DNA from: Acidimicrobiales bacterium
Lineage (GTDB): Bacteria; Actinomycetota; Acidimicrobiia; Acidimicrobiales; Acidimicrobilacustridaceae
Assembly: GCA_025455885.1 (NCBI GenBank)
Contig: JALOLR010000023.1
Location: 1-32,268, forward strand
Length of the DNA stretch: 32,268 nucleotides
Direction of reading: 5' to 3'
Under the pieces are notes generated by a model, which was not told the origin of the DNA, made no database searches, and saw only the letters and a list, made by a program, of their open reading frames with translations. Made by a program: the position numbers and the translations under genes. Below, in pieces: positions 502 to 12,372 of the stretch (positions are counted from its first letter, which is position 1; each line of letters starts with the position of its first letter).

Positions 502-1242
502 TCAGGCCCAGCCGCCCGCGTAGGCGACGAACTGCCCGGTGGTGAAGTTGCTCGTCCCGTCGAGGAACACCCCGCAGAACGCCGCGAACTCCTCCATGGT
601 CCCGAGACGGCGCATCGGGACCTGCGCCTCGACTCGTTCCCGCCCCTCCGGCTCGGTGGCGCCCGTGGCGGCGAGGAACGCCGGGAAGTCCATGAAGTTG
701 GTCCCCACGGCGTTCACCTGGACGCCGGCGCGGGCCACCTCGCCGGCCACGTTGCGGGCCAGCATCGTCGCCCCGGCCCGGGCCGCCGAATAGAGGGGTG
801 CGCCGGGGGTGGGGCGGGAGCCGGCCGCGCTGGTGATCACCAGCACCTGACCGCCGCCCCTGTCCACCATCGGGGGGACCACCGTCTTGAGGAAGTGGTA
901 CGGCGCCATCATGCAGCCGTCGATCACCGTGGCGAAGTCCTCGGCCGTGGAGTCGACGAAGCGGCCTCCGACGATGCGACCCGAAGCCGCCACGGCGGCG
1001 TCGAGGCGGGCGAACCGCGTGAGTGCGGCGTCGACCAGGCGGGGGGCCGCGTCGGGTCGAGACAGGTCGCCCACGCCGGTCACCACCTCGACCCGAACGC
1101 CCCGGCCCGTCAGCTCCTCCACGAGGTCCGGGTCGGCGTCGCCGAGCACCAGGTCGTGGTCCCGGGCCGCGAGCACCCGGGCCAGCGCCGGGCCCACGTA
1201 GTTGCGAGCGTCGGCCACGATGGCGACCCGACGGTCGGACAC
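502..1242 (-). CDS. SDR-fold protein with halohydrin-dehalogenase-like active site
   Basis: A 246-residue single-domain protein of the short-chain dehydrogenase fold. Two things set it apart from an ordinary SDR. The catalytic triad is S138-x12-Y151-x3-R155, with Arg instead of Lys. The glycine-rich cofactor loop (TGxxxGxG) is missing and replaced by A10-x4-Y15-x-G17. S-x12-Y-x3-R with T-x4-F/Y-x-G is the signature of halohydrin dehalogenases (HheA-HheG), which close vicinal haloalcohols to epoxides and reopen epoxides with azide, cyanide or nitrite. Only the first Thr differs here (Ala10). The stretch after the Tyr (SARAGA-like) and the RLGT...TGQ...AGG C-terminus also resemble HheC from memory. 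The GTG start is 6 bp after the stop of the LLM oxidoreductase, so the two are probably one operon. It could instead be a catalytically dead SDR. Confidence 0.85.
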   Translation of the reverse strand: MSDRRVAIVADARNYVGPALARVLAARDHDLVLGDADPDLVEELTGRGVRVEVVTGVGDLSRPDAAPRLVDAALTRFARLDAAVAASGRIVGGRFVDSTAEDFATVIDGCMMAPYHFLKTVVPPMVDRGGGQVLVITSAAGSRPTPGAPLYSAARAGATMLARNVAGEVARAGVQVNAVGTNFMDFPAFLAATGATEPEGRERVEAQVPMRRLGTMEEFAAFCGVFLDGTSNFTTGQFVAYAGGWA

Positions 1243-1248
1243 GGTCGC

Positions 1249-2172
1249 TCAGCCCTGCCGCGAGGGCGAGATGACCTTGGCGCCGAAGGCGGCGAGGCCC
1301 TCGAGGGCGCTGTCCAGGCTGTCACCGGGCACACCGGCGTCGCTCCAGGTGACGCCGAGGGCGGCCAGCTCGCCGAGCTCGTCGAGGTAGCGCTCCGCGG
1401 GGAAGTCGTCCGCGCGGGGGTCGCCCCCGACGAACGGCCCGAAGGCGATGTCGATGCTCGCCGGATCGCGGTCCTGGGCCTCGACCATCACCCAGAGCTC
1501 GTCGAGCATCCCGGCCAGGTCGTCCGCCGTCTCGAGCGGGAGCGTGCGGGCGGTGGTGGCGAGGGTGCGGTCCGCGGGGAAGGGCTTCCACCCGGACGCT
1601 GCTCTGGCCACGCGCCGGCGCGAGAGCTTGCTGTTGCCGCCGATCCAGATCGGCGGCGGGGACGCGGGCTTGGGGTTGGCGGTCTGGCCCCGGGCCTCGA
1701 AGTGGAGGCCCTCGTAGGCGAAGTCGTCCTGGGTCCAGATCCCCTGGAGGACGTCGAGGGCCTCGTCGAAGAGGGCGTTGCGCTCCTCGAAGTCCACGCC
1801 GAGCGCCTTGTACTCGCCGCGCAGGTAGCCGGTGGCGACGGCCAGGATGAAGCGCCCCCCGGACAGGACGTCGAGGCTGGCCACCGCCTTGGCCACCACG
1901 AAGGGGTTGCGGTACGGCAGCACCAGGATGTTCGGGATGAGGTGCAGGCGCTCGGTGACGGCCGCGCAGTAGGAGAGGGCCACGAAGGGGTCGAGGGCGT
2001 CGTGCCCGCCGGCGCGCAGCCACCGGTCGGTGGGGGCCGGGTGGTCGGTGAAGCTGACGGCGTCGAAGCCGGCGGCCTCGGCGGCGCGGGCGAAGCGGAT
2101 GACGGCGTCGCCGGTGAGGAACGCAGGGTCGTACGGGCCGGCGACGATCGGGAAGGTGACCGAGAACTTCAT
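1249..2172 (-). CDS. LLM-class F420-dependent oxidoreductase
   Basis: A 307-residue luciferase-like (LLM) TIM-barrel protein, resembling the Rv2161c-type family of probable F420-dependent oxidoreductases. Family features seen: an N-terminal MKFSVTFP strand, a DHP metal/active-site-like turn near residue 44, the NPFVVAKAVASLD-type segment with SGGR(F) around residues 105-130, and a PPIWIGG strand followed by a Ser/Arg-rich loop. These enzymes transfer hydride between reduced deazaflavin F420 (or FMN) and varied small substrates; the substrate here cannot be read. ATG 2172 is chosen because a TAGGTT -10 box lies 7 bases upstream, fitting a leaderless mRNA; an extended frame to 2433 would overlap the divergent gene. 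It is first in an operon with the halohydrin-dehalogenase-like gene. Confidence 0.88.
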   Translation of the reverse strand: MKFSVTFPIVAGPYDPAFLTGDAVIRFARAAEAAGFDAVSFTDHPAPTDRWLRAGGHDALDPFVALSYCAAVTERLHLIPNILVLPYRNPFVVAKAVASLDVLSGGRFILAVATGYLRGEYKALGVDFEERNALFDEALDVLQGIWTQDDFAYEGLHFEARGQTANPKPASPPPIWIGGNSKLSRRRVARAASGWKPFPADRTLATTARTLPLETADDLAGMLDELWVMVEAQDRDPASIDIAFGPFVGGDPRADDFPAERYLDELGELAALGVTWSDAGVPGDSLDSALEGLAAFGAKVISPSRQG

Positions 2173-2204: not shown

Positions 2205-3527
2205 TTGCCGGCCGCGTGTGCCAGCCTGTCGGCGTGCGTTCCACCCGATGCGGATGCGGCCCGGCTGCCCGGTGACGGCCTGGTGAGCCCGTTCCCGAGC
2301 CCCTGGCCGGCCGAGGACGGTGGTCCCGATCGGCTCCAGGCCAGCCCCGGTGTGTTCGCCGGGTTCGATGTCGCCTCGGCCTCGGTGATCTCACGGGACG
2401 CGCCCGGCGCGACGATGGCCGTGCTGCGTGCACCCGGCGAGGTGTTCCTCCTCGGCCACACGATCGGTGAGGACGCCACGGCGTGGGTGGAGCGCATCGA
2501 CCCGGAGACCCTCGAGGTCCTCGACCGCGTCGAGGGCCTCGCCGGTGGGCCGACCTGGCCCGGCGGGTTGGCCGCTCACGGCGACGGCTCGCTGCACGTC
2601 GTCTTCGGCAACCACGCCCACCGGCTCTCGGCCGGGCTCGAGGTCGAAGCCACCGCCCGCCTCCCTCGCGAGCGTCCCTACAACAGCTTCGTGACCCTGC
2701 CCGACGGCCACCTCGTCACCAAGGACTTCGGCGGCCGGCGACCCGGTGAGACCGACAGCGCCGTCGCCCCGCCGTGCGAGCTGCTGGTGCTCGATCCGGT
2801 CACGTTGGCCGTGGTGGCCTCGGCCGAGCTCGGGGAGCCGTCTGTCGCTCGGCTCTCCGCCGACGGGGCGACGGTCTACGCCGTCGGCCACACCGCGCTC
2901 TGGCGGGTCGGCTGGGACGGCACCGACCTCGTCGTCGACCCGGACTTCCGACCCGTCTACCGGATCATCGACGGTCAGACCCACGGATGGGACGCAGTGA
3001 TCGCGTTGGGTGCCGCGTGGTTCCTCGACGACGGCGCCGGCAGTGAGAACTACGCAGGCACCCTCCGCGGGCAGGGCTCCTCGACGGCCCCGCTGCACCT
3101 GGTGCGGATCGCCCTCGACACCGGGGATGTCTCCCTCACCGAGGTTTGCGGGCGAGCCGGGGGTGTGGTGGCCAACCCGCCGCTGGTCGACCCCGTTCGC
3201 CGCATCGCCCTCGCTTACGACACCGGCAACGGGGTGATGGCTGCGTTCGACATCGCCGACGACGGCTCGCTCACCCGCCGGTGGGAGGTCGATCAGGACC
3301 ACGGGAGCCATCTCCTCGCCGATCCCGCCTCCGGGCTGGTGCTCACCCTCGACCACGACGGCGAGCGCTGGATGGAAGAGATCGTCCTGCGCGACATCGA
3401 CACCGGTGACGAGCGCGCCCGACTCGACTCGGGGAGCCCGCTGCAGTCGGTGCTCTTCCCGGCTCCGGGATGGGGTCGCCAGGTCTACGTCTGCACGTTC
3501 AGCACCCTGACCTCGCTCACCTGGTGA
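2205..3527 (+). CDS. Beta-propeller-like protein of unknown function
   Basis: Up to 440 residues. The protein is built of repeating strand-rich blocks of roughly 45-60 residues with turn motifs such as (L/V)DP(V/E)T(L)-V, DG(S/H)L, and (A/V)YDTGNG, as in six- or seven-bladed propellers of the SMP-30/YncE/strictosidine-synthase-like kind. A segment near residues 155-175 (PYNSFVTLPDGHLVTKDFGG) looks like the conserved core. No catalytic residues can be assigned. The start is unclear: TTG 2205 gives a very short N-terminus ending in LSAC, which looks like a lipobox but lacks the charged and hydrophobic parts of a signal peptide; GTG 2283 would remove it. It is divergent from the LLM gene and converges with the 3534-4055 gene, 6 bp away. 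Confidence 0.8.
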   Translation: MPAACASLSACVPPDADAARLPGDGLVSPFPSPWPAEDGGPDRLQASPGVFAGFDVASASVISRDAPGATMAVLRAPGEVFLLGHTIGEDATAWVERIDPETLEVLDRVEGLAGGPTWPGGLAAHGDGSLHVVFGNHAHRLSAGLEVEATARLPRERPYNSFVTLPDGHLVTKDFGGRRPGETDSAVAPPCELLVLDPVTLAVVASAELGEPSVARLSADGATVYAVGHTALWRVGWDGTDLVVDPDFRPVYRIIDGQTHGWDAVIALGAAWFLDDGAGSENYAGTLRGQGSSTAPLHLVRIALDTGDVSLTEVCGRAGGVVANPPLVDPVRRIALAYDTGNGVMAAFDIADDGSLTRRWEVDQDHGSHLLADPASGLVLTLDHDGERWMEEIVLRDIDTGDERARLDSGSPLQSVLFPAPGWGRQVYVCTFSTLTSLTW

Positions 3528-3533
3528 TCGGGT

Positions 3534-4055
3534 TCAGCCGCCGCCGTCGCCCCACAGCTCGCCGATCCCGTCGTCGATGCCGTCGTCGACCGCCGGTGCC
3601 GGTCGCCGGGTGCCGCCGGTCAGCAGATCGAGGCCGTCCGTCCGCAACCGGAGCGCCTCGCACCCGGCGCGGGTTGGCCGGTCGCCGCTGTGGCCCAGCA
3701 CCTTCATCCCCGTGAAGTGGTGGACGCCCACGGGGTCGAGCAGGGTGCGTCCGTGGTACGAGCCGAGGTGCACCGGCCCCGGGACGATGTCGCCGGTGGT
3801 CGGGAGCCACCACAGGTGCCAGGCCGCTCTCGGGTCGTCGGTCGAACGCCAGCCCGTGCCCAGGTCGACCTCCTGCTCGACGCCGCGCATCCGCCCGAAG
3901 TGACCGGGGCTCACGAGGTCGGTGCGCGGTTCGGGGGCCTGCCACGCGCTGATGGTCCGTCCGTAGAACCCGAGGACCGCGGCGGTGGCCGCCGCCAGTC
4001 CACCCAGGAAGACCCAGGTGGCGAGCTCCTGTTCGACGACGTCGGCGGAGGTCAC
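3534..4055 (-). CDS. Single-pass membrane protein of unknown function
   Basis: A 173-residue protein with one membrane helix near the N-terminus (about residues 12-31) and a soluble C-terminal part with Trp- and Gly-rich segments (for example DLGTGW and AAWHLWW). No domain recognised. The GTG start is supported by a TAGCGT box six bases upstream, part of which is the TAG stop of the molybdopterin oxidoreductase gene 9 bp upstream. It could also be transcribed with that gene. The last ~20 residues are rich in Asp and Gly. Function unknown; nothing in the sequence says it is a subunit of the neighbouring oxidoreductase, though a membrane anchor for it is conceivable. Confidence 0.75.
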   Translation of the reverse strand: MTSADVVEQELATWVFLGGLAAATAAVLGFYGRTISAWQAPEPRTDLVSPGHFGRMRGVEQEVDLGTGWRSTDDPRAAWHLWWLPTTGDIVPGPVHLGSYHGRTLLDPVGVHHFTGMKVLGHSGDRPTRAGCEALRLRTDGLDLLTGGTRRPAPAVDDGIDDGIGELWGDGGG

Positions 4056-4061
4056 GCCCGA

Positions 4062-4067
4062 ACGCTA
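4062..4067 (-). promoter_or_regulatory. -10 box TAGCGT overlapping a stop codon
   Basis: On the minus strand the TAG stop of the molybdopterin oxidoreductase gene is the first half of TAGCGT. Six bases follow, then the GTG at 4055. This would give a leaderless mRNA for the small membrane protein. Confidence 0.5.
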
Positions 4068-6341
4068 TCGGCCGGGGGCCGCCCGCACCTCCACCGGGAT
4101 CCCGTTGACGGCGGCGTTGCCCGACAGCTCGTCGACGAACGTTCCCGGTGCGAGGAGGTTGTTGTTCACGCCGGCGTGCTCACGGGCGACGGACATGCGG
4201 GTCCCCGGCCGGTCGTGGCCCCAGCCGTGGGGGAGGCACACCACCCCGGGCATCATCTCGTCGGTGACCTCGACCGGCACCTCCACCGTGCCGACCTCGC
4301 TGCTGACGATCGCCCGCCCCTCGTCGACGACCCCCGAGCGCGCCGCGTCGTCCGGGTGGATCAGCAGGGTGCAGCGGTCCTTGCCCTTCACCAGGACGTC
4401 GACGTTGTGCATCCAGCTGTTCTTCGACCGCAGGTGGCGCCGGCTCACGAGGACCAGGCCGTCCGGCCGCGTCCCCATCGCCGACCGGAGCCGGGGCAGG
4501 TCGCCGAGCACGTACCCGGGGGCGAGCTCGACCATCCCGCTCGGGGTGCCGACCAGCTCCGCGGCGCGCGGCACCATCGGGCCGAGGTCGATCCCGTCGA
4601 TCTCCGGGCGGATCCGGGCGAGCGTCAGCCCGTCGGGTGCCTCGCCGTAGCGGTCGCCGAAGGGGCCCATCCGCACGGTCAGGTCGATCATCCGCTCCGG
4701 CCCGCCGTGGTCGTACTCGGCGAGCGTGGTCTCGGGGTCGCGGTCGAGCATGGTGCACAACGCCGAGAACCAGCCGTCATCCACGGTGGCGAGGTCGAAC
4801 GTCGCCTCGGTCCGCCCGGCGCAGTACCACCCGAGCCGGCAGAGGATCTCCCACTCGGAGGGCTGGTCGTCGGGGGTGGCGTACAGCGGGTCGCTCCACT
4901 TGGTCGCCGAACCCACCGCCCACCCCCAGATGAGCTCGTCGAAGTGAGAGGTCTCGAGCGGCGACGGCCCGGGAAGGATCACGTGGGCGAAGCGGGTCGT
5001 CTCGTTGAGGTAGTTGTCGAGCGAGATCATGCAGTCGAGCATCGGGAGGGCGGCCTCGAGGCGGTCCGACTCCGGCACGCTGATGACCGGGTTCCCGGCC
5101 ACGGTGATCAAGCCGTGGATCTGCCCGTCGCCGGGGGTGGCGATCTCCTCGGCGAGACAGGAGCAGGGGACCTGCCCGAGGACCTCCGGTGCGCCGCGTA
5201 CCCGGCTCGTCCACCGTCCGAAGGTCGGCTCGCCGGTCACGTTCGTGTCGGTCATCCAGGCGATCGGCACGCTCGCCGGCTTGCCGAACATGAGTCCGCC
5301 CTCGACGTCGAAGTGGCCGGTGACGATGTTGACGACGTCGACCAGCCACGATGCGAGGGTGCCGAACTCCTGGTTGCAGAGGCCGATCCGGCCGTAGACC
5401 GCAGCGCGCTCGGTGGTGGCGATCCGGCGGGCGAGGCCCCTGATCGTCCCGGCCGGCACGCCGCACCAGTCGGCCACCGCCTCGGGGGTCCACCCCTGCA
5501 CGGCCGAGAGCAGCTCGTCGAGCCCGGCGACCATGCCCTCGACGGCGCCCAGGTCGACGAGGCCCTCGTCGGCGACGACCTGGACGACGGCCATCAGGAG
5601 CGCGGCGTCGGTCCCCGGACGGATCGGGATCCACTGGTCGGCGCGGTCGGCGGTGCCGGTGCGGCGCGGGTCGATCACGACGACCGAACCGCCCCTGTCG
5701 CGGATGGCGTCGATCTCGCCCAGCACGTCGGGGCAGGCCAGCAGCGAGCCGCCGGAGGCCTGGGGGTTCCCACCCATGACGACCAGGAGGTCGGTGCGGC
5801 GGATGTCGACGGTCGGGATCTTCCACTGGTTGCCGTACATCAGCGCCGACGTGACGTTCTTCGGCCACTGGTCGATCGTCCCTGCGGAGTAGATCATCTC
5901 GAACCCGGCCTGGCCGATGAGCATCGCCATGTAGCGCCCGAGCGTGAAGGAGTGGCCGACGGGGTTGCCGACGAAGGCGGTCATGGCCTTGGGTCCGTGG
6001 CGGTCGAGCACCGAGGCGATCAGCTCCTCGCAGCGGGCGAACGCCTCGTCCCAGGAGGCCTCGCGCCACTGATCGCCCTCGCGGATCATCGGGGTCCGCA
6101 GCCGGTCGGGGTCGTCGTGCAACCGGCCGAGCACCGTGCCCTTGGGGCAGAGGTACCCCTTCGACCAGACGTCGTCGGGGTTGCCCCGGATGACCTTCAC
6201 GGCGTCGTCGTCGCCGAGGTGGACCTCCAGGCCACACATGCACTCGCAGAGCGGGCAGGTCCGCTTGTGGATCCGCGTGCCGTCGCGGACCTCGTGGATC
6301 GGTCCGATCAGCCGTCGCGGTGCTGCGACCGGTTCGCCCAT
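4065..6341 (-). CDS. Molybdopterin-dependent oxidoreductase (Mo/W-bis-MGD, FdhF/NapA-like)
   Basis: A 758-residue enzyme of the DMSO-reductase/formate-dehydrogenase superfamily. The N-terminus carries the [4Fe-4S] motif C29-x2-C32-x3-C36 and C65-P-K-G, followed by the molybdopterin domains (PIRPGTDAALL, VDELSGNAAVNG and the C-terminal barrel with HDRPGTRMS). At the place where the metal ligand (Cys, Sec, Ser or Asp) normally sits, the sequence reads YSAGTIDQWPKN (residues 151-162): no Cys or stop/Sec codon, so Ser152 or Asp157 are candidates. No Tat signal, no iron-sulphur or membrane subunit nearby, so a soluble, single-subunit enzyme is likely. The reaction cannot be named. Start ATG 6341 has a purine-rich GGGGGAAG upstream; a longer frame to 6659 lacks family sequence. 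Confidence 0.9.
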   Translation of the reverse strand: MGEPVAAPRRLIGPIHEVRDGTRIHKRTCPLCECMCGLEVHLGDDDAVKVIRGNPDDVWSKGYLCPKGTVLGRLHDDPDRLRTPMIREGDQWREASWDEAFARCEELIASVLDRHGPKAMTAFVGNPVGHSFTLGRYMAMLIGQAGFEMIYSAGTIDQWPKNVTSALMYGNQWKIPTVDIRRTDLLVVMGGNPQASGGSLLACPDVLGEIDAIRDRGGSVVVIDPRRTGTADRADQWIPIRPGTDAALLMAVVQVVADEGLVDLGAVEGMVAGLDELLSAVQGWTPEAVADWCGVPAGTIRGLARRIATTERAAVYGRIGLCNQEFGTLASWLVDVVNIVTGHFDVEGGLMFGKPASVPIAWMTDTNVTGEPTFGRWTSRVRGAPEVLGQVPCSCLAEEIATPGDGQIHGLITVAGNPVISVPESDRLEAALPMLDCMISLDNYLNETTRFAHVILPGPSPLETSHFDELIWGWAVGSATKWSDPLYATPDDQPSEWEILCRLGWYCAGRTEATFDLATVDDGWFSALCTMLDRDPETTLAEYDHGGPERMIDLTVRMGPFGDRYGEAPDGLTLARIRPEIDGIDLGPMVPRAAELVGTPSGMVELAPGYVLGDLPRLRSAMGTRPDGLVLVSRRHLRSKNSWMHNVDVLVKGKDRCTLLIHPDDAARSGVVDEGRAIVSSEVGTVEVPVEVTDEMMPGVVCLPHGWGHDRPGTRMSVAREHAGVNNNLLAPGTFVDELSGNAAVNGIPVEVRAAPGR

Positions 6342-6374
6342 GGCGCTTCCCCCCCGGGTGACGTCGAGTGCCCG

Positions 6375-6380
6375 AAGGTA
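6375..6380 (-). promoter_or_regulatory. Possible -10 box TACCTT for the molybdopterin oxidoreductase
   Basis: Minus-strand TACCTT lies 33 bases upstream of the ATG at 6341 and would give a short leader carrying the GGGGGAAG ribosome-binding site. No clear -35. Confidence 0.3.
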
Positions 6381-6476
6381 TCCGAGGCGGCGGCGGCGTC
6401 CGGGGCCGACCCCTGCGTCCGGCGGCGACGTCGCGTCGCGGCGGGGAGTGTCACAGGCGGTGGGGAGACTGCACGC

Positions 6477-6677
6477 ATGGAGCTTCCCCTGGTCATCGAT
6501 TGCGGCGACTGCGAGATGCAGCACACCGACGTCTGTGCCGACTGCCTGGTCACCTACGTCTGCTCGCGGGAGCCCGACGACGCCCTGGTCGTCGACGTCG
6601 CCGAGGTGCGAGCGCTGCGCCTGCTCGCCGACAGCGGTCTCGTGCCCGAGCTGCGCCACCGGCGGCGAATCGGCTGA
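6477..6677 (+). CDS. 66-residue Cys-rich protein of unknown function
   Basis: A small protein with C9-x2-C12, C20-x2-C23 and C29, beginning MELPLVIDCGDCEMQH. The spacing suggests a metal site (zinc or iron-sulphur) in the first 30 residues; the rest (about 40-58) is a predicted helix rich in Ala, Leu and Arg. ATG 6477 follows GTGGGGAGA at a good ribosome-binding distance. It is divergent from the molybdopterin oxidoreductase (135 bp between starts) and lies 74 bp before queG. The reading frame stays open far upstream only because it runs antisense to the oxidoreductase gene. Family not recognised; coding status rests on the Cys pattern, the ribosome-binding site and the position in an otherwise empty gap. 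Confidence 0.65.
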   Translation: MELPLVIDCGDCEMQHTDVCADCLVTYVCSREPDDALVVDVAEVRALRLLADSGLVPELRHRRRIG

Positions 6678-8988: not shown

Positions 8989-9605
8989 TCGAGGCGCCCG
9001 ACGGGTCCGGCGCCGAGCGGGCGCCCACACCCGGCACCCGCCTGCTGGTCGCCTCCTGGGCGGGGACCGGCCTGTTCACCGCGCTCGCGGTCGCCGCGCT
9101 CTTCGTCGACGCCGTCGTCCTGACGTTCGTGGCGCTGTCGCTGGTCATGTTCGCCGTCGGGTGCGTCCTGTTCGTGGTCGCCTTCCTGCGCGCCGTCGAT
9201 CGCAGCCGCACCGAGACGATCGGGATCGGCGGGTTGTTCTTCGGGGCCGGAGCCGCCCCGGGTCGGGTCCAGGCCCTCCTCATGGGCTCGCTCGCCGTCG
9301 AGGTGGTGGTGGCGGTCACGATCGCCGTCCTGCGTCCGTACACCGCCCTCGCGTTCGGGACCCTCGCGCCGATGTTCCCGCTGGGGGTCGCCGGGCTGTG
9401 GGTGGCGCTGTTCGGGGTCTTCCCCTCACGGGAGGCCGAGCTGACCCGGGCGGGTCGGCGAGACGCGGAGCGGGCCGCCCATCGGCGCGGTCCGTCGGGC
9501 GGGACCGCCTCCCCGGACGTGGCCGGGGTCGACGACCGACCGCCCCCGCCGGCACCCGGGCCCGGTGGGAGCCGGGAGGCCGGCGCCGACGGAGGCGACG
9601 ACTAA
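8985..9605 (+). CDS. Four-helix membrane protein of unknown function
   Basis: A 206-residue protein with four hydrophobic segments (about residues 16-37, 41-64, 94-115 and 118-140), a short charged turn between the second and third, and a long polar, Pro/Gly/Asp-rich C-terminal tail. No domain recognised. Its GTG start overlaps the TGA of the PimB-like gene by 4 bases, so the two are made together; a role in mannolipid transport or in holding the glycosyltransferase at the membrane is possible but not shown. Its TAA stop is also the first half of a TAACGT box that may serve the next gene. Confidence 0.8.
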   Translation: MIEAPDGSGAERAPTPGTRLLVASWAGTGLFTALAVAALFVDAVVLTFVALSLVMFAVGCVLFVVAFLRAVDRSRTETIGIGGLFFGAGAAPGRVQALLMGSLAVEVVVAVTIAVLRPYTALAFGTLAPMFPLGVAGLWVALFGVFPSREAELTRAGRRDAERAAHRRGPSGGTASPDVAGVDDRPPPPAPGPGGSREAGADGGDD

Positions 9606-9608
9606 CGT
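9603..9608 (+). promoter_or_regulatory. Possible -10 box TAACGT overlapping a stop codon
   Basis: The TAA stop of the preceding gene extends to TAACGT. It would give a leader of about 28 bases carrying AGGGAGGT before the ATG at 9643. Confidence 0.35.
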
Positions 9609-9642
9609 CGGCGGTTCGAGGGCGTGCGCCCAGGGAGGTCCG

Positions 9643-10119
9643 ATGGTGGAGCAGGCGAGGGAGCAGATCCGCATCGACGCGCCGGTCGCCCGGTGCTTCG
9701 AGACGCTGACCGCTTTCGAGTCGTACCCGGAGTGGGCCGGTGACCTGAAGCAGGTGACACGGATCGAGGAGGACGTCGAAGGCCGCGCCACGGTGGTCGA
9801 GTTCCGAGCCGCGGCGATGGGACGCAGCACCACCTATCAGCTCCGCTACGACTACTCGGCGGCACCGCAGCGACTCGGTTGGGCCCTCGTCGCCGGGGAC
9901 CTCCCCCGTGAGCTCGACGGCACCTACGTCCTCACGCCGGCCCCCGACGACCCCGAGGCGACCGACGTCACCTACGAGCTCGCCGTCGACCTCGTCTACC
10001 CCATCCCGGGCTTCGTGAAGCGCCGCGCCGAGGCGCGGATCATCAAGACCGCGCTCATCGAGCTGAAGGCTCGCGTCGAGGGTGCCCCCCGTCCGGATCT
10101 CGACGACGTCGACGGCTGA
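9643..10119 (+). CDS. SRPBCC (START/cyclase-dehydrase-like) protein
   Basis: A 158-residue helix-grip fold protein. Family marks: an N-terminal strand followed by APVARCFETLTAFESYPEWA (Trp in the helix after the first strand), a central VEFRA strand, a GTYVLTP strand, and a long C-terminal helix starting at PGFVKRRAEARII. Such proteins bind lipids, polyketides or other hydrophobic ligands in a closed pocket; the ligand is not readable. ATG 9643 has the strongest ribosome-binding site in the window, AGGGAGGT. It follows the queG-pimB group after 37 bp, and a hairpin 40 bp after its stop probably ends transcription. Lipid handling next to a mannolipid enzyme is plausible, not proven. Confidence 0.85.
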   Translation: MVEQAREQIRIDAPVARCFETLTAFESYPEWAGDLKQVTRIEEDVEGRATVVEFRAAAMGRSTTYQLRYDYSAAPQRLGWALVAGDLPRELDGTYVLTPAPDDPEATDVTYELAVDLVYPIPGFVKRRAEARIIKTALIELKARVEGAPRPDLDDVDG

Positions 10120-10159
10120 GGCTCCCCTCCGAACCCGTCGAGGGCTCTCGGATCGCCGT

Positions 10160-10181
10160 CCCTCGCACCGGTGTGCGAGGG
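10160..10181 (+). terminator. Hairpin terminator candidate after the SRPBCC gene
   Basis: Perfect 9-bp stem CCCTCGCAC / GTGCGAGGG with a four-base loop (CGGT), 40 bp after the stop codon. No T-run follows, which is usual for high-GC actinobacteria. Confidence 0.6.
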
Positions 10182-10260
10182 CGTCCGGGGCGCATCGGTG
10201 CTGGTCGGCGGCGGACAAAGGCTCAACTGCGGGCTCGGAGACGCCGATGGCTAGTGGACC

Positions 10261-12372
10261 ATGCGCCTGCTCCAGCTCCACCTCGATCCCGATGACGGAA
10301 CCTTCGTCGAGCTGCACCCCATGTTCACGGTGGTGCGCGGGCTCGACGAGATCGACCGCCAGCGCCTCGTCGCCGTCGTGACCGCCATCGCCGCCGGCGA
10401 GGACCCCGGCTGCGAAGGGTCGATCGAGGCCCACGGCGTGGTGATGGACCTCTCCGCCGAGTCGCTGGGGATGCTGGACGCGGGCAGCGAGATCGATCCC
10501 GTGGTGCGTCGCCGGGAGCTCCCGGGTGCAGTCCCCTCCTTGTTCGACGCCGGTCCGGACCTCGACCCCGTCGACGTCGACGAGCGGGACGCGGCGGCGA
10601 TGCTCCTCGCCAACGCCCCGGTGGACACCCATCCCGAGCTCGACAAGGTCCGTCAGCGACGCCGGGACACTCGCGAGGCGGTGGCCGTGCTCCGCTTCGC
10701 CGCGGAGCAGGCGGCGCGAGACCTCGACGTCGCCAGTCGGGAGCGTCGCTCGATCGGGGAACGCCTCGACGCGGCGACGGTCCGCGCTGCCTCGCCCCCC
10801 GGGCCCGAGCACCGCCGGGGGCCGGCCGCCGTGCAGGTCGTCGAGCTCCAGAAGGAGCTCGACGCGATCGACGCCGGCATCATCGAGCTCGAAGGGATCG
10901 ACGAGCGCCCCATCGCCGTGCTCCTCGACGCGATCGAGAACCCGGATCCGGTCGAGGAGGTCCCGTCGCCACGGGCCCAGGAGCTGGCCGATCGCTTCGC
11001 CGCCCTGCAGCTCGAGGTGGCAGCCCTGGAGGACCGGATGGAGGCCGAGGGTCGGGGCCCGGCGTCGGTCATGCGTCGCCTCGACGAGGCACGTGCCGCC
11101 TTCCAGGCCGCCGAACGGTCGGCGATGCGGGCCGACATCGCCCCGGAGGACGACGCTGCGCTCGCCACCGCGCACGAGAAGGTGCTGGAGGCCGAGCGCA
11201 AGGCGTCGGGCCTGCGATCGCGCTCCGGGCAGCGCAAGCTCGCCGAGGCGCTGGCCGAGCAGCAGGAGATCCTCGATCGCATGGGGTTCCCGACGTGGAG
11301 CGCCTACGTCATGGGTGCCACCTTGATGGGCACCGACCCCGCTGCCCAGGAGCGTCTCGACGCCGCCCGTCAGGAGCAGTTCGCGGCCGAGGACGAGTGG
11401 GCCGAGGTCAGCGCCCGGATGGAGGCCGACCCCGATCACCATGCCCTCCTCGACCAGCTCGAACAGGTGGAGATCGACGCCGTCTCGCTCCTCCTCGAGC
11501 ACGGGGTCCCCGTGCCCGACGAGCGGATCGGGCTCGAGTCCACCCTGCGTGACGTCCGTCAGCCCAAGGACGACGTCACCGTCGCCCAGCTCGTCGACGC
11601 CCTCGCCTTCCACCTCGAGACCATCGGCCTCACCCTCGACCCGGGCTCGCGGGACCGCGAGAGCGTCACCCGCGTGGCCCAGGCGTTCCTCGCCGAGGCG
11701 GAGGGGATCGCCGAGCGGATCGAGGAGCTCACCACCGAACGCCGCCGTCACGAGGCCCGCCTCGCCGACGCCCGCTCGCGTGCCGAGGCCGAGGCGTGGG
11801 AGGCCCTCGAGGCGTCGGTCGACGGCGCCATCGCCGACCCCGAGCCCACGCTCGCCGAGCTCGAGGAGATGCTCGCCGAGGCCACCGCGACCGAGGCCGA
11901 GCTGAGCGAGATCCTGGAGGGCCGCAACGCCCTGCTCGACGTGGCGTTGATCGCCGACCGACGGGCCGCCGAGAAGGCCCTCGCCGTGGCCGGGGAGGTC
12001 CTCGCCGACGATGACCTCGATCCTCGTGACGTCGTGGCCCGGTACGCCGGTCAGAGCGGCACCGTCTACGCCGCCCGACCGGGCTGGTCGGAGATCGACG
12101 CCGAGGCGATCGAGTTCTACCTGCTCGCCCGACTCGCCGCTCAACGACAGGTCTCCTACGCCGGCTCCGCGCCGATGGTCATCGACGACGCCCTGGCCGG
12201 GGTGCCCGAGAGCGACGTGCGCCGGATCCTCGACGGGCTGGGTCGCATGGCGGAGTCGGTGCAGATCGTCTACGTCACCGACGATCCCGTCGTGATCGAC
12301 TGGGCGCAGCAGCGCGGCGAGGACGTCGCCGTGGCCGATCGCCTGGCGACCGGAGCCGAGTCCACCGTCTGA
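10261..12372 (+). CDS. SMC/RecN-like coiled-coil protein lacking a Walker A motif
   Basis: A 703-residue protein with the plan of an SMC/RecN/AAA-type ATPase: an N-terminal strand-rich head (residues 1-75), long charged helical segments (about 130-345 and 365-590, with breaks near 175-190 and 341-360), and a C-terminal head. The C-terminal head keeps a signature-helix-like stretch (about 612-629), a Walker-B-like strand PMVIDDALAG (638-647) and a following YVTDD where the H-loop would be. The place of the P-loop reads VVRGLDEIDRQRL (24-36): no GxGK(S/T). The catalytic Glu after Walker B is Asp and the H-loop His is Asp. So it looks like a degenerate, probably non-hydrolysing member. ATG 10261 is the only start in front of the conserved N-terminus. 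It stands alone after a terminator. Confidence 0.8.
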   Translation: MRLLQLHLDPDDGTFVELHPMFTVVRGLDEIDRQRLVAVVTAIAAGEDPGCEGSIEAHGVVMDLSAESLGMLDAGSEIDPVVRRRELPGAVPSLFDAGPDLDPVDVDERDAAAMLLANAPVDTHPELDKVRQRRRDTREAVAVLRFAAEQAARDLDVASRERRSIGERLDAATVRAASPPGPEHRRGPAAVQVVELQKELDAIDAGIIELEGIDERPIAVLLDAIENPDPVEEVPSPRAQELADRFAALQLEVAALEDRMEAEGRGPASVMRRLDEARAAFQAAERSAMRADIAPEDDAALATAHEKVLEAERKASGLRSRSGQRKLAEALAEQQEILDRMGFPTWSAYVMGATLMGTDPAAQERLDAARQEQFAAEDEWAEVSARMEADPDHHALLDQLEQVEIDAVSLLLEHGVPVPDERIGLESTLRDVRQPKDDVTVAQLVDALAFHLETIGLTLDPGSRDRESVTRVAQAFLAEAEGIAERIEELTTERRRHEARLADARSRAEAEAWEALEASVDGAIADPEPTLAELEEMLAEATATEAELSEILEGRNALLDVALIADRRAAEKALAVAGEVLADDDLDPRDVVARYAGQSGTVYAARPGWSEIDAEAIEFYLLARLAAQRQVSYAGSAPMVIDDALAGVPESDVRRILDGLGRMAESVQIVYVTDDPVVIDWAQQRGEDVAVADRLATGAESTV

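Follow-up and report, generated by a model that had tools for sequence, protein, structure and literature searches.

A probable G-type halohydrin dehalogenase with alanine at the motif 1 threonine position and the linkage of its branch to sulfatase genes in Acidimicrobiia

The locus raises the question of whether a protein with the catalytic triad of halohydrin dehalogenases (HHDHs), and alanine where their first motif should open with threonine, belongs to that family, and what it might do in the cell. The gene lies in the window, the whole 32,268-nucleotide stretch of Acidimicrobiales DNA that was analysed, at 502-1242 of the minus strand, with a GTG start at 1242-1240 and a stop at 504-502, and its product has 246 amino acids. 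The plus-strand translation of 502-1242 is another open frame, which was taken as a shadow. Three features of the window are needed below:

502..1242, minus strand: probable halohydrin dehalogenase, G-type, short-loop branch (open reading frame, PDB phmmer, tree, model)
1249..2172, minus strand: F420-dependent luciferase-like oxidoreductase, TIGR03619 (PF00296, E 6.6e-46; TIGR03619, 256.2 bits against a cut-off of 166.9)
2283..3527, plus strand: unnamed beta-propeller of about 415 amino acids, BPP (conserved neighbour, predicted model)

The preliminary description, made from the letters of the window, had read S-x12-Y-x3-R (S138, Y151, R155) and A10-x4-Y15-x-G17 in the protein, and both were found at exactly these positions. 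For comparison, 75 distinct homologues, the window protein included, were pooled from a sample of genomes of the class and a scan of named genomes; the scan gave 34 loci, of which L090-L093 were excluded as ordinary short-chain reductases (SDRs; 26-32% identity). The agreement exceeds chance: in the alignment, S138, Y151 and R155 were present in 75/75 homologues and G17 in all 73 with a letter there. Residue 15 was aromatic in 72 of 73 (Tyr 69, Phe 3, Met 1), the sole exception being a methionine that is apparently the start of the truncated L128. Residue 10 varied among the 72 homologues with a letter at that position (Ala 40, Thr 8, Asn 7, Gly 6, Ser 6, His 2, and Pro, Cys and Asp 1 each). 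With Y15 and G17, the protein has the x-x4-F/Y-x-G arrangement that replaces the SDR glycine loop in HHDHs, and in place of the classical SDR motifs TG-x3-G-x-G and Y-x3-K it has AD-x3-Y-x-G and Y-x3-R. Motif 1 of HHDHs is given as T-x4-F/Y-x-G (PMC11976700); the window protein, with Ala10, fails this pattern, used for mining in 2014, and so do the crystallised HHDHs 8h8y and 7wkq. A comparison set of 27 SDRs was drawn from 33 candidate loci of the window's genome and four distant genomes, six having been removed by a length filter. None of the 27 has both motifs; S-x12-Y-x3-R occurs anywhere in two and T-x4-F/Y-x-G in none, and the alignment column that holds the lysine of YxxxK in 26 of them holds arginine in 75/75 homologues.

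Pfam named only SDR families (PF13561, E 6.2e-33), and none of the best 25 NCBIfam matches listed was above its cut-off (best subfamily, 111 bits against 215). A phmmer search of the PDB gave first 8h8y (AbHheG, E 1.8e-100) and 7wkq (halohydrin dehalogenase, 2.8e-100), then the AbHheG mutant 8hqp and the HheG entries 6i9w (1e-56) and 5o30 (1.5e-55); lower down came 4z9f (halohydrin epoxidase A, 2.8e-25) and the best chain named as a reductase, 4nbu (1.7e-21). The 8h8y chain is labelled 'alpha/beta hydrolase' in the PDB sequence file, yet it is an SDR-fold HHDH. A profile search had been suggested in the preliminary description as a check on family; a profile of 71 homologues set the HHDHs 8h8y, 7wkq and HheG (E 1e-127 to 1e-100) clear of all other matches (1e-35 or worse). 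Pairwise identity to the window protein was 65.0% for 8h8y, 64.9% for 7wkq, 46.5% for HheG, 24.8% for HheC and 29.9% for the best of the 27 SDRs. In its own genome 61 places matched, the gene itself included, the next best at E 2.2e-18 and 29% identity.

A tree was inferred by FastTree (LG) from a MAFFT alignment of 102 sequences, comprising the window protein, 70 homologues, 8h8y, 7wkq, HheG, HheC and the 27 SDRs; the fragments L128, L130, L131 and L139 were left out of the tree and of the tally of motifs and linkage by clade. The window protein grouped with HheG, to the exclusion of HheC and the SDRs, in a G-type clade of 74 sequences with a local support of 0.818. HheC joined this clade before any sampled SDR (local support 0.993), in a tree that lacks HHDH subtypes A, B, D, E and F. 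The protein could still be a common NAD(P)-dependent short-chain reductase that shows the motif by coincidence, as the SDR names from Pfam and NCBIfam and the reductase folds matched by the model at Z about 31 would have it. This is almost certainly wrong, for the tree, a further check suggested in the preliminary description, has 0/27 SDRs inside the G-type clade and arginine stands for the lysine of YxxxK in every homologue; the reading was rejected.

Within the G-type clade, HheG and seven relatives form a clade of 8 with Thr in 8/8 (support 0.993), here the Thr clade. A second branch of 66 sequences (support 0.909) has Ala 39, Gly 7, Asn 7, Ser 7, His 2, and Pro, Cys, Asp and Thr 1 each at this position, and the window protein, 8h8y (Ser) and 7wkq (Gly) all lie inside a 45-member part of it (support 0.942). 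We therefore rejected the idea that the residue-10 oddity is private to the window protein, Ala being the commonest state of the branch (39/66). T-x4-F/Y-x-G matches 1/66 of this short-loop branch against 8/8 of the Thr clade, much as had been foreseen from the window protein, which Thr-based motif searches were expected to miss; S-x12-Y-x3-R matches 66/66. The HheG insertion at 39-47 is absent from the window protein, which has LGDADPDLVEEL where the HheG stretch is 12 residues longer. A short linker is also found in L132 and L135 of the Thr clade, so loop length alone is insufficient to define the short-loop branch.

Sequence, tree and model thus agree with the HHDH identity first proposed for the protein, and place it in the G type. 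The proposals of a new branch and of a rare family fell away: 8h8y (Ser) and 7wkq (Gly), both crystallised, are already in the branch, and a sample of 395 genomes of the class has relatives at E <= 1e-40, counting both clades, at 57 places in 55 genomes. The window protein is a new member of a known, crystallised HHDH branch from which a pocket residue supposed to be fixed has been lost. PMC11976700 mentions two natural variants of high homology that differ at the Thr position (citing Zhou 2023 and Wang 2022), so that the branch and its variation at this position are already in print; a description of Ala at the motif 1 Thr position was not found in the parts of the HHDH literature available. 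Among the homologous loci, L126 and L141 are two HHDH copies in genome G273, with a sulfatase within 8 kb for L126 only. L063, L067 and L078 are Acidimicrobiia-type HHDH contigs titled Bifidobacterium breve in MAG records, which are probably mistitled.

An AlphaFold2 model was built from a 71-sequence alignment, with a mean pLDDT of 95.7 and a pTM of 0.92. Foldseek matched it to 8h8y (TM 0.98, rmsd 0.8), 5o30 (TM 0.96, rmsd 1.4) and 7wkq (TM 0.85, rmsd 3.7), and VIA-align to 8h8y (Z 40.1, rmsd 0.8), 5o30 (Z 36.7, rmsd 1.2), the partly ordered chain of 7wkq (Z 31.9 over 205 residues) and, as best reductase, 1edo (Z 31.7, rmsd 1.8); HheC was absent from the best 50 fold matches listed. The structural overlay proposed at the outset was borne out in that the best matches are HHDHs; reductases at Z about 31 score like 7wkq, however, so the fold alone is not decisive. 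Tyr15 and the overlay of the model on 8h8y at 0.8 A suggest that the nucleotide site would be closed.

Together, these data indicate that the protein is very probably a cofactor-free G-type HHDH of the AbHheG (8h8y)/7wkq branch. By sequence, tree and predicted model it combines the SDR fold with the Ser138-Tyr151-Arg155 triad, has Tyr15 where the SDR nucleotide loop has a glycine, and carries a short linker where HheG has its loop. By the known HHDH mechanism, Ser138 would hold the substrate oxygen, Arg155 would lower the pKa of Tyr151, and Tyr151 would take the proton from a vicinal haloalcohol, the halide departing to give an epoxide. In the reverse direction, Tyr151 would donate the proton as a small anion (azide, cyanide, cyanate or nitrite) opens the epoxide, and the anion would occupy the site where reductases bind NAD(P). 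The enzyme would be expected to act on internal and cyclic epoxides. G-type enzymes use several anions to open cyclic epoxides, and almost no dehalogenation of the chloroalcohols tried is reported for them (PMC10099379); the name 'dehalogenase' may therefore misname the natural reaction.

Residue 10 bears on whether such an enzyme would work. In saturation mutagenesis of HheC and HheG only Thr to Ser retained detectable activity (PMC11976700, section 5), which means that Ala fails in those backgrounds, and no activity of any Ala10 member was found in the available parts of the HHDH literature. Thr to Ala is not among the active HheC and HheG mutants, and the protein might accordingly be an HHDH relative rendered inactive by an anion pocket that Ala10 destabilises. 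We consider this extremely improbable, given that most members of this conserved branch, with its invariant triad, carry Ala10, and that the Gly10 relative 7wkq is reported, by the title of its reference, as an active HHDH. By analogy, an Ala10 bracketed by the natural Ser10 of 8h8y and Gly10 of 7wkq should leave the window enzyme active.

The luciferase-like gene at 1249-2172 ends 6 bases upstream of the HHDH start on the same strand, and the two are likely co-transcribed. Open reading frames similar to it at E <= 1e-8 were present in 9/75 loci, the window included, and were mostly weak matches, on which count this subfamily was dropped as a conserved HHDH neighbour; the luciferase-like frame of L083 (47 bits) is also directly upstream of the HHDH on the same strand. 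A different luciferase-like subfamily, TIGR03857, was found repeatedly, in 7 loci. Genes for acyl-CoA dehydrogenase (14 loci) and Rieske proteins (16 loci) are almost confined to one group of related loci, P450 genes, present in 12 loci, lie outside that group in six, and none of these three kinds was counted as linkage. Elsewhere in the window, the frame at 4065-6659 clusters with a molybdopterin oxidoreductase of L100, and this frame and a short conserved one at 3534-4055 stand in the same order in L097 and L100. Two near-identical tandem copies of about 80 bases, seen by eye, lie within positions 1-180 at the contig end and are perhaps why the assembly ends there.

Neighbouring frames were clustered across 75 loci, up to 8 kb per side. 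The commonest HHDH neighbour, in 27 loci, was a sulfatase of about 765-770 amino acids (PF00884), here the first sulfatase, whose nearest PDB entries are the arylsulfatases 4cxk/1hdh (E about 1e-86). Full-length linked copies from different families are 51-69% identical to the references compared and 37-46% identical to full-length paralogues of the window genome; contig-cut copies blur this gap between orthologues and paralogues (up to 58% over 245 amino acids). With a cut-off of at least 950 bits, chosen after seeing the list, HHDH and first sulfatase lie within 10 kb of each other in 16 of the 37 genomes holding both, or in 17 linked genomes when G260, with a copy interrupted by a frame break, is counted. 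The linkage spans 7 of the 15 families having HHDH, and about 0.26 genomes were expected by chance, a figure that assumes 3-Mb genomes and ignores contig ends in genomes that are partly fragmented. The arrangement varies from divergent to downstream on the same strand (G063, G356) or on the opposite strand (G047, G162). The first sulfatase is present in 37/55 HHDH genomes versus 40/340 others (odds ratio 15.4, phylogeny ignored).

The 55 genomes, about 167 Mb in all, contain 436 sulfatases of all kinds, from which 2.4 would be expected in the 929 kb of flank. At least one sulfatase frame was present in 33/75 loci by a wider count, which includes a 64-bit match (L120), second-type sulfatases and one sulfatase more than 8 kb away (L108). 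The clade-wise rule gives 28/64 branch loci as linked, one of which (L108) has the second sulfatase, hence 27. Among these 64 loci, Ala10 members were linked in 20 and not in 19, and the others were linked in 8 and not in 17; on these counts, a dependence between residue 10 and sulfatase linkage inside the branch is not supported. In L097 the linked sulfatase (9578-12108) is split over two overlapping frames, by assembly error or as a pseudogene.

The window itself contributes another partner, the propeller BPP. At E <= 1e-40 it occurs in 64/395 genomes (34/55 HHDH genomes versus 30/340 others, phylogeny ignored). It lies within 10 kb of the HHDH in 14 genomes, the window's included and three of the Thr clade (G135, G088, G052) among them, and within 10 kb of the first sulfatase in 13, always on the same strand. 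Four members scanned had no Pfam or NCBIfam family above cut-off, and the PDB sequence search gave no match at E <= 0.1. The model of the BPP (pLDDT 94.5) is a predicted beta-propeller matching propellers of many kinds (Rv3035 homologue, Z 38.1; YxaL, Z 37.3; tetrathionate hydrolase, Z 31.7), and its fold therefore names no function.

A second sulfatase of about 535 amino acids, nearest in the PDB to the sulfatase-family entries 4upi and 4upl and to a choline-sulfatase, was found in 38/55 HHDH genomes versus 49/340 others, with phylogeny ignored and a cut-off of about 700 bits chosen after seeing the list. Its gene and that of the BPP lie within 10 kb of each other in 22 genomes, share a strand in 21 of these and are only 3-64 bases apart in 20; the second sulfatase is within 10 kb of the HHDH in 7 genomes. 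The C-x-P-x-R signature was present in 30/31 first and 12/12 second distinct sulfatase copies in the fetched loci. All four genes stand together in L154, with the propeller, the second sulfatase and the first sulfatase followed by a divergent HHDH, a fragment at the contig end; L105 keeps this order but has an SDR gene in between, and in L142 the HHDH, second sulfatase and propeller all run in one direction. In the window genome the propeller is beside the HHDH, and the two sulfatases lie elsewhere, on further contigs (C8:83059-85317, 66%; C7:80963-82534, 65%). None of the three partners lies within 10 kb in 31/55 HHDH genomes, to which fragmentation contributes. The partners are also found together where HHDH is lacking, as in genome G083, and the HHDH can thus be no more than an optional member of the set.

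The linkage suggests that this HHDH branch serves the catabolism of sulfated, possibly chlorinated, compounds, the HHDH probably acting in a catabolic set with the two sulfatases and the propeller. Haloalcohol detoxification and degradation is presumed as the role of HHDHs in PMC11536340, and other physiological functions cannot be excluded according to PMC4989007. The HHDH scaffold might instead serve another natural leaving group, for example sulfate from a vicinal hydroxy-sulfate ester, and both the loss of Thr10 and the sulfatase link would reflect it. Thr is kept in 1/66 of the branch versus 8/8 of the HheG clade, the sulfatase of about 765 amino acids is beside the HHDH in 27/64 branch loci versus 0/7 Thr-clade loci, and G-type enzymes accept many anions and hardly release chloride (PMC10099379). 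The Thr-clade loci, however, number just 7, two of them on short contigs (L133, L135), and the Thr-clade genomes G135, G088 and G052 link their HHDH to the propeller too; residue 10 does not clearly track sulfatase linkage inside the branch, and a sulfate-sized pocket is hypothetical. A different leaving group is thus very unlikely, and we retain the reading as a G-type HHDH.

For the substrate of such an HHDH, one candidate may be named, unlikely though it is. The branch could be a dedicated step in the catabolism of sulfated halogenated lipids by Acidimicrobiia, with algal chlorosulfolipids as substrates. Chlorosulfolipids bear sulfate esters along with numerous chlorines, a sulfated carbon lying beside a chlorinated one. 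The two sulfatases would free hydroxyls adjoining chlorine, the HHDH would close the internal chlorohydrins to epoxides, and the relaxed Thr10 position would be an adaptation of the anion pocket. These lipids fit because they unite sulfate with chlorines and have been found both in freshwater chrysophytes and in coastal waters (PMC13413282, PMC11767188). Against the idea are the weak dehalogenation by G-type enzymes (PMC10099379) and the 31/55 HHDH genomes without a nearby partner. Among the papers searched, none mentions both a halohydrin dehalogenase and a sulfatase. If true, the chlorosulfolipid reading would give a natural role to an HHDH branch and genes to the breakdown of chlorosulfolipids.

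Searches with the published T-x4-F/Y-x-G pattern overlook an entire branch of enzymes that may be useful as biocatalysts, and a Thr-free pattern is advisable. The gene set of HHDH, two sulfatases and propeller is the new lead and the part worth following; the linkage to two sulfatases and an unnamed propeller offers a concrete, testable hypothesis on the natural job of the branch.

Compared with known HHDHs, HheC of Agrobacterium radiobacter (1pwx) is alike in the triad, the aromatic-x-Gly of motif 1 and its tree position (0.993), and differs in its 25% identity and in having Phe where the window protein has Tyr. Its gene shares an operon with an epoxide hydrolase (PMC11976700). One candidate for such a partner was examined here, the alpha/beta hydrolase L116:3701-4621 in one block of loci, and it led nowhere: its nearest matches are ORF17 (8pzg) and macrolide esterases, and the epoxide hydrolase EphA matched weakly. 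HheG of Ilumatobacter coccineus (5o30) shares the G type, the triad, the Tyr and the overall fold (Z 36.7, rmsd 1.2), but has 46% identity, Thr first in motif 1 and the long loop 39-47, and belongs to the clade that makes up the rest of the G-type tree. The 7wkq HHDH of an Acidimicrobiia bacterium has 65% identity, the triad, the Tyr and a short linker, whereas it carries Gly10 and the linker DPAE, the window protein Ala10 and ADPD; its crystal overlays the model less closely (rmsd 3.7) than 65% identity suggests. One homologue with the short linker DPAE replacing loop 39-47 is mentioned in PMC11536340, which is exactly the linker of 7wkq, an entry that is probably that of Wang et al. 2022. 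AbHheG, also from an Acidimicrobiia bacterium, is like the window protein in its 65% identity over 246 amino acids, its triad, short linker and Tyr15, and its fold (TM 0.98). Its structure, 8h8y, is reportedly that of Zhou et al. 2023. It differs from the window protein at residue 10, which is serine in AbHheG and alanine here.
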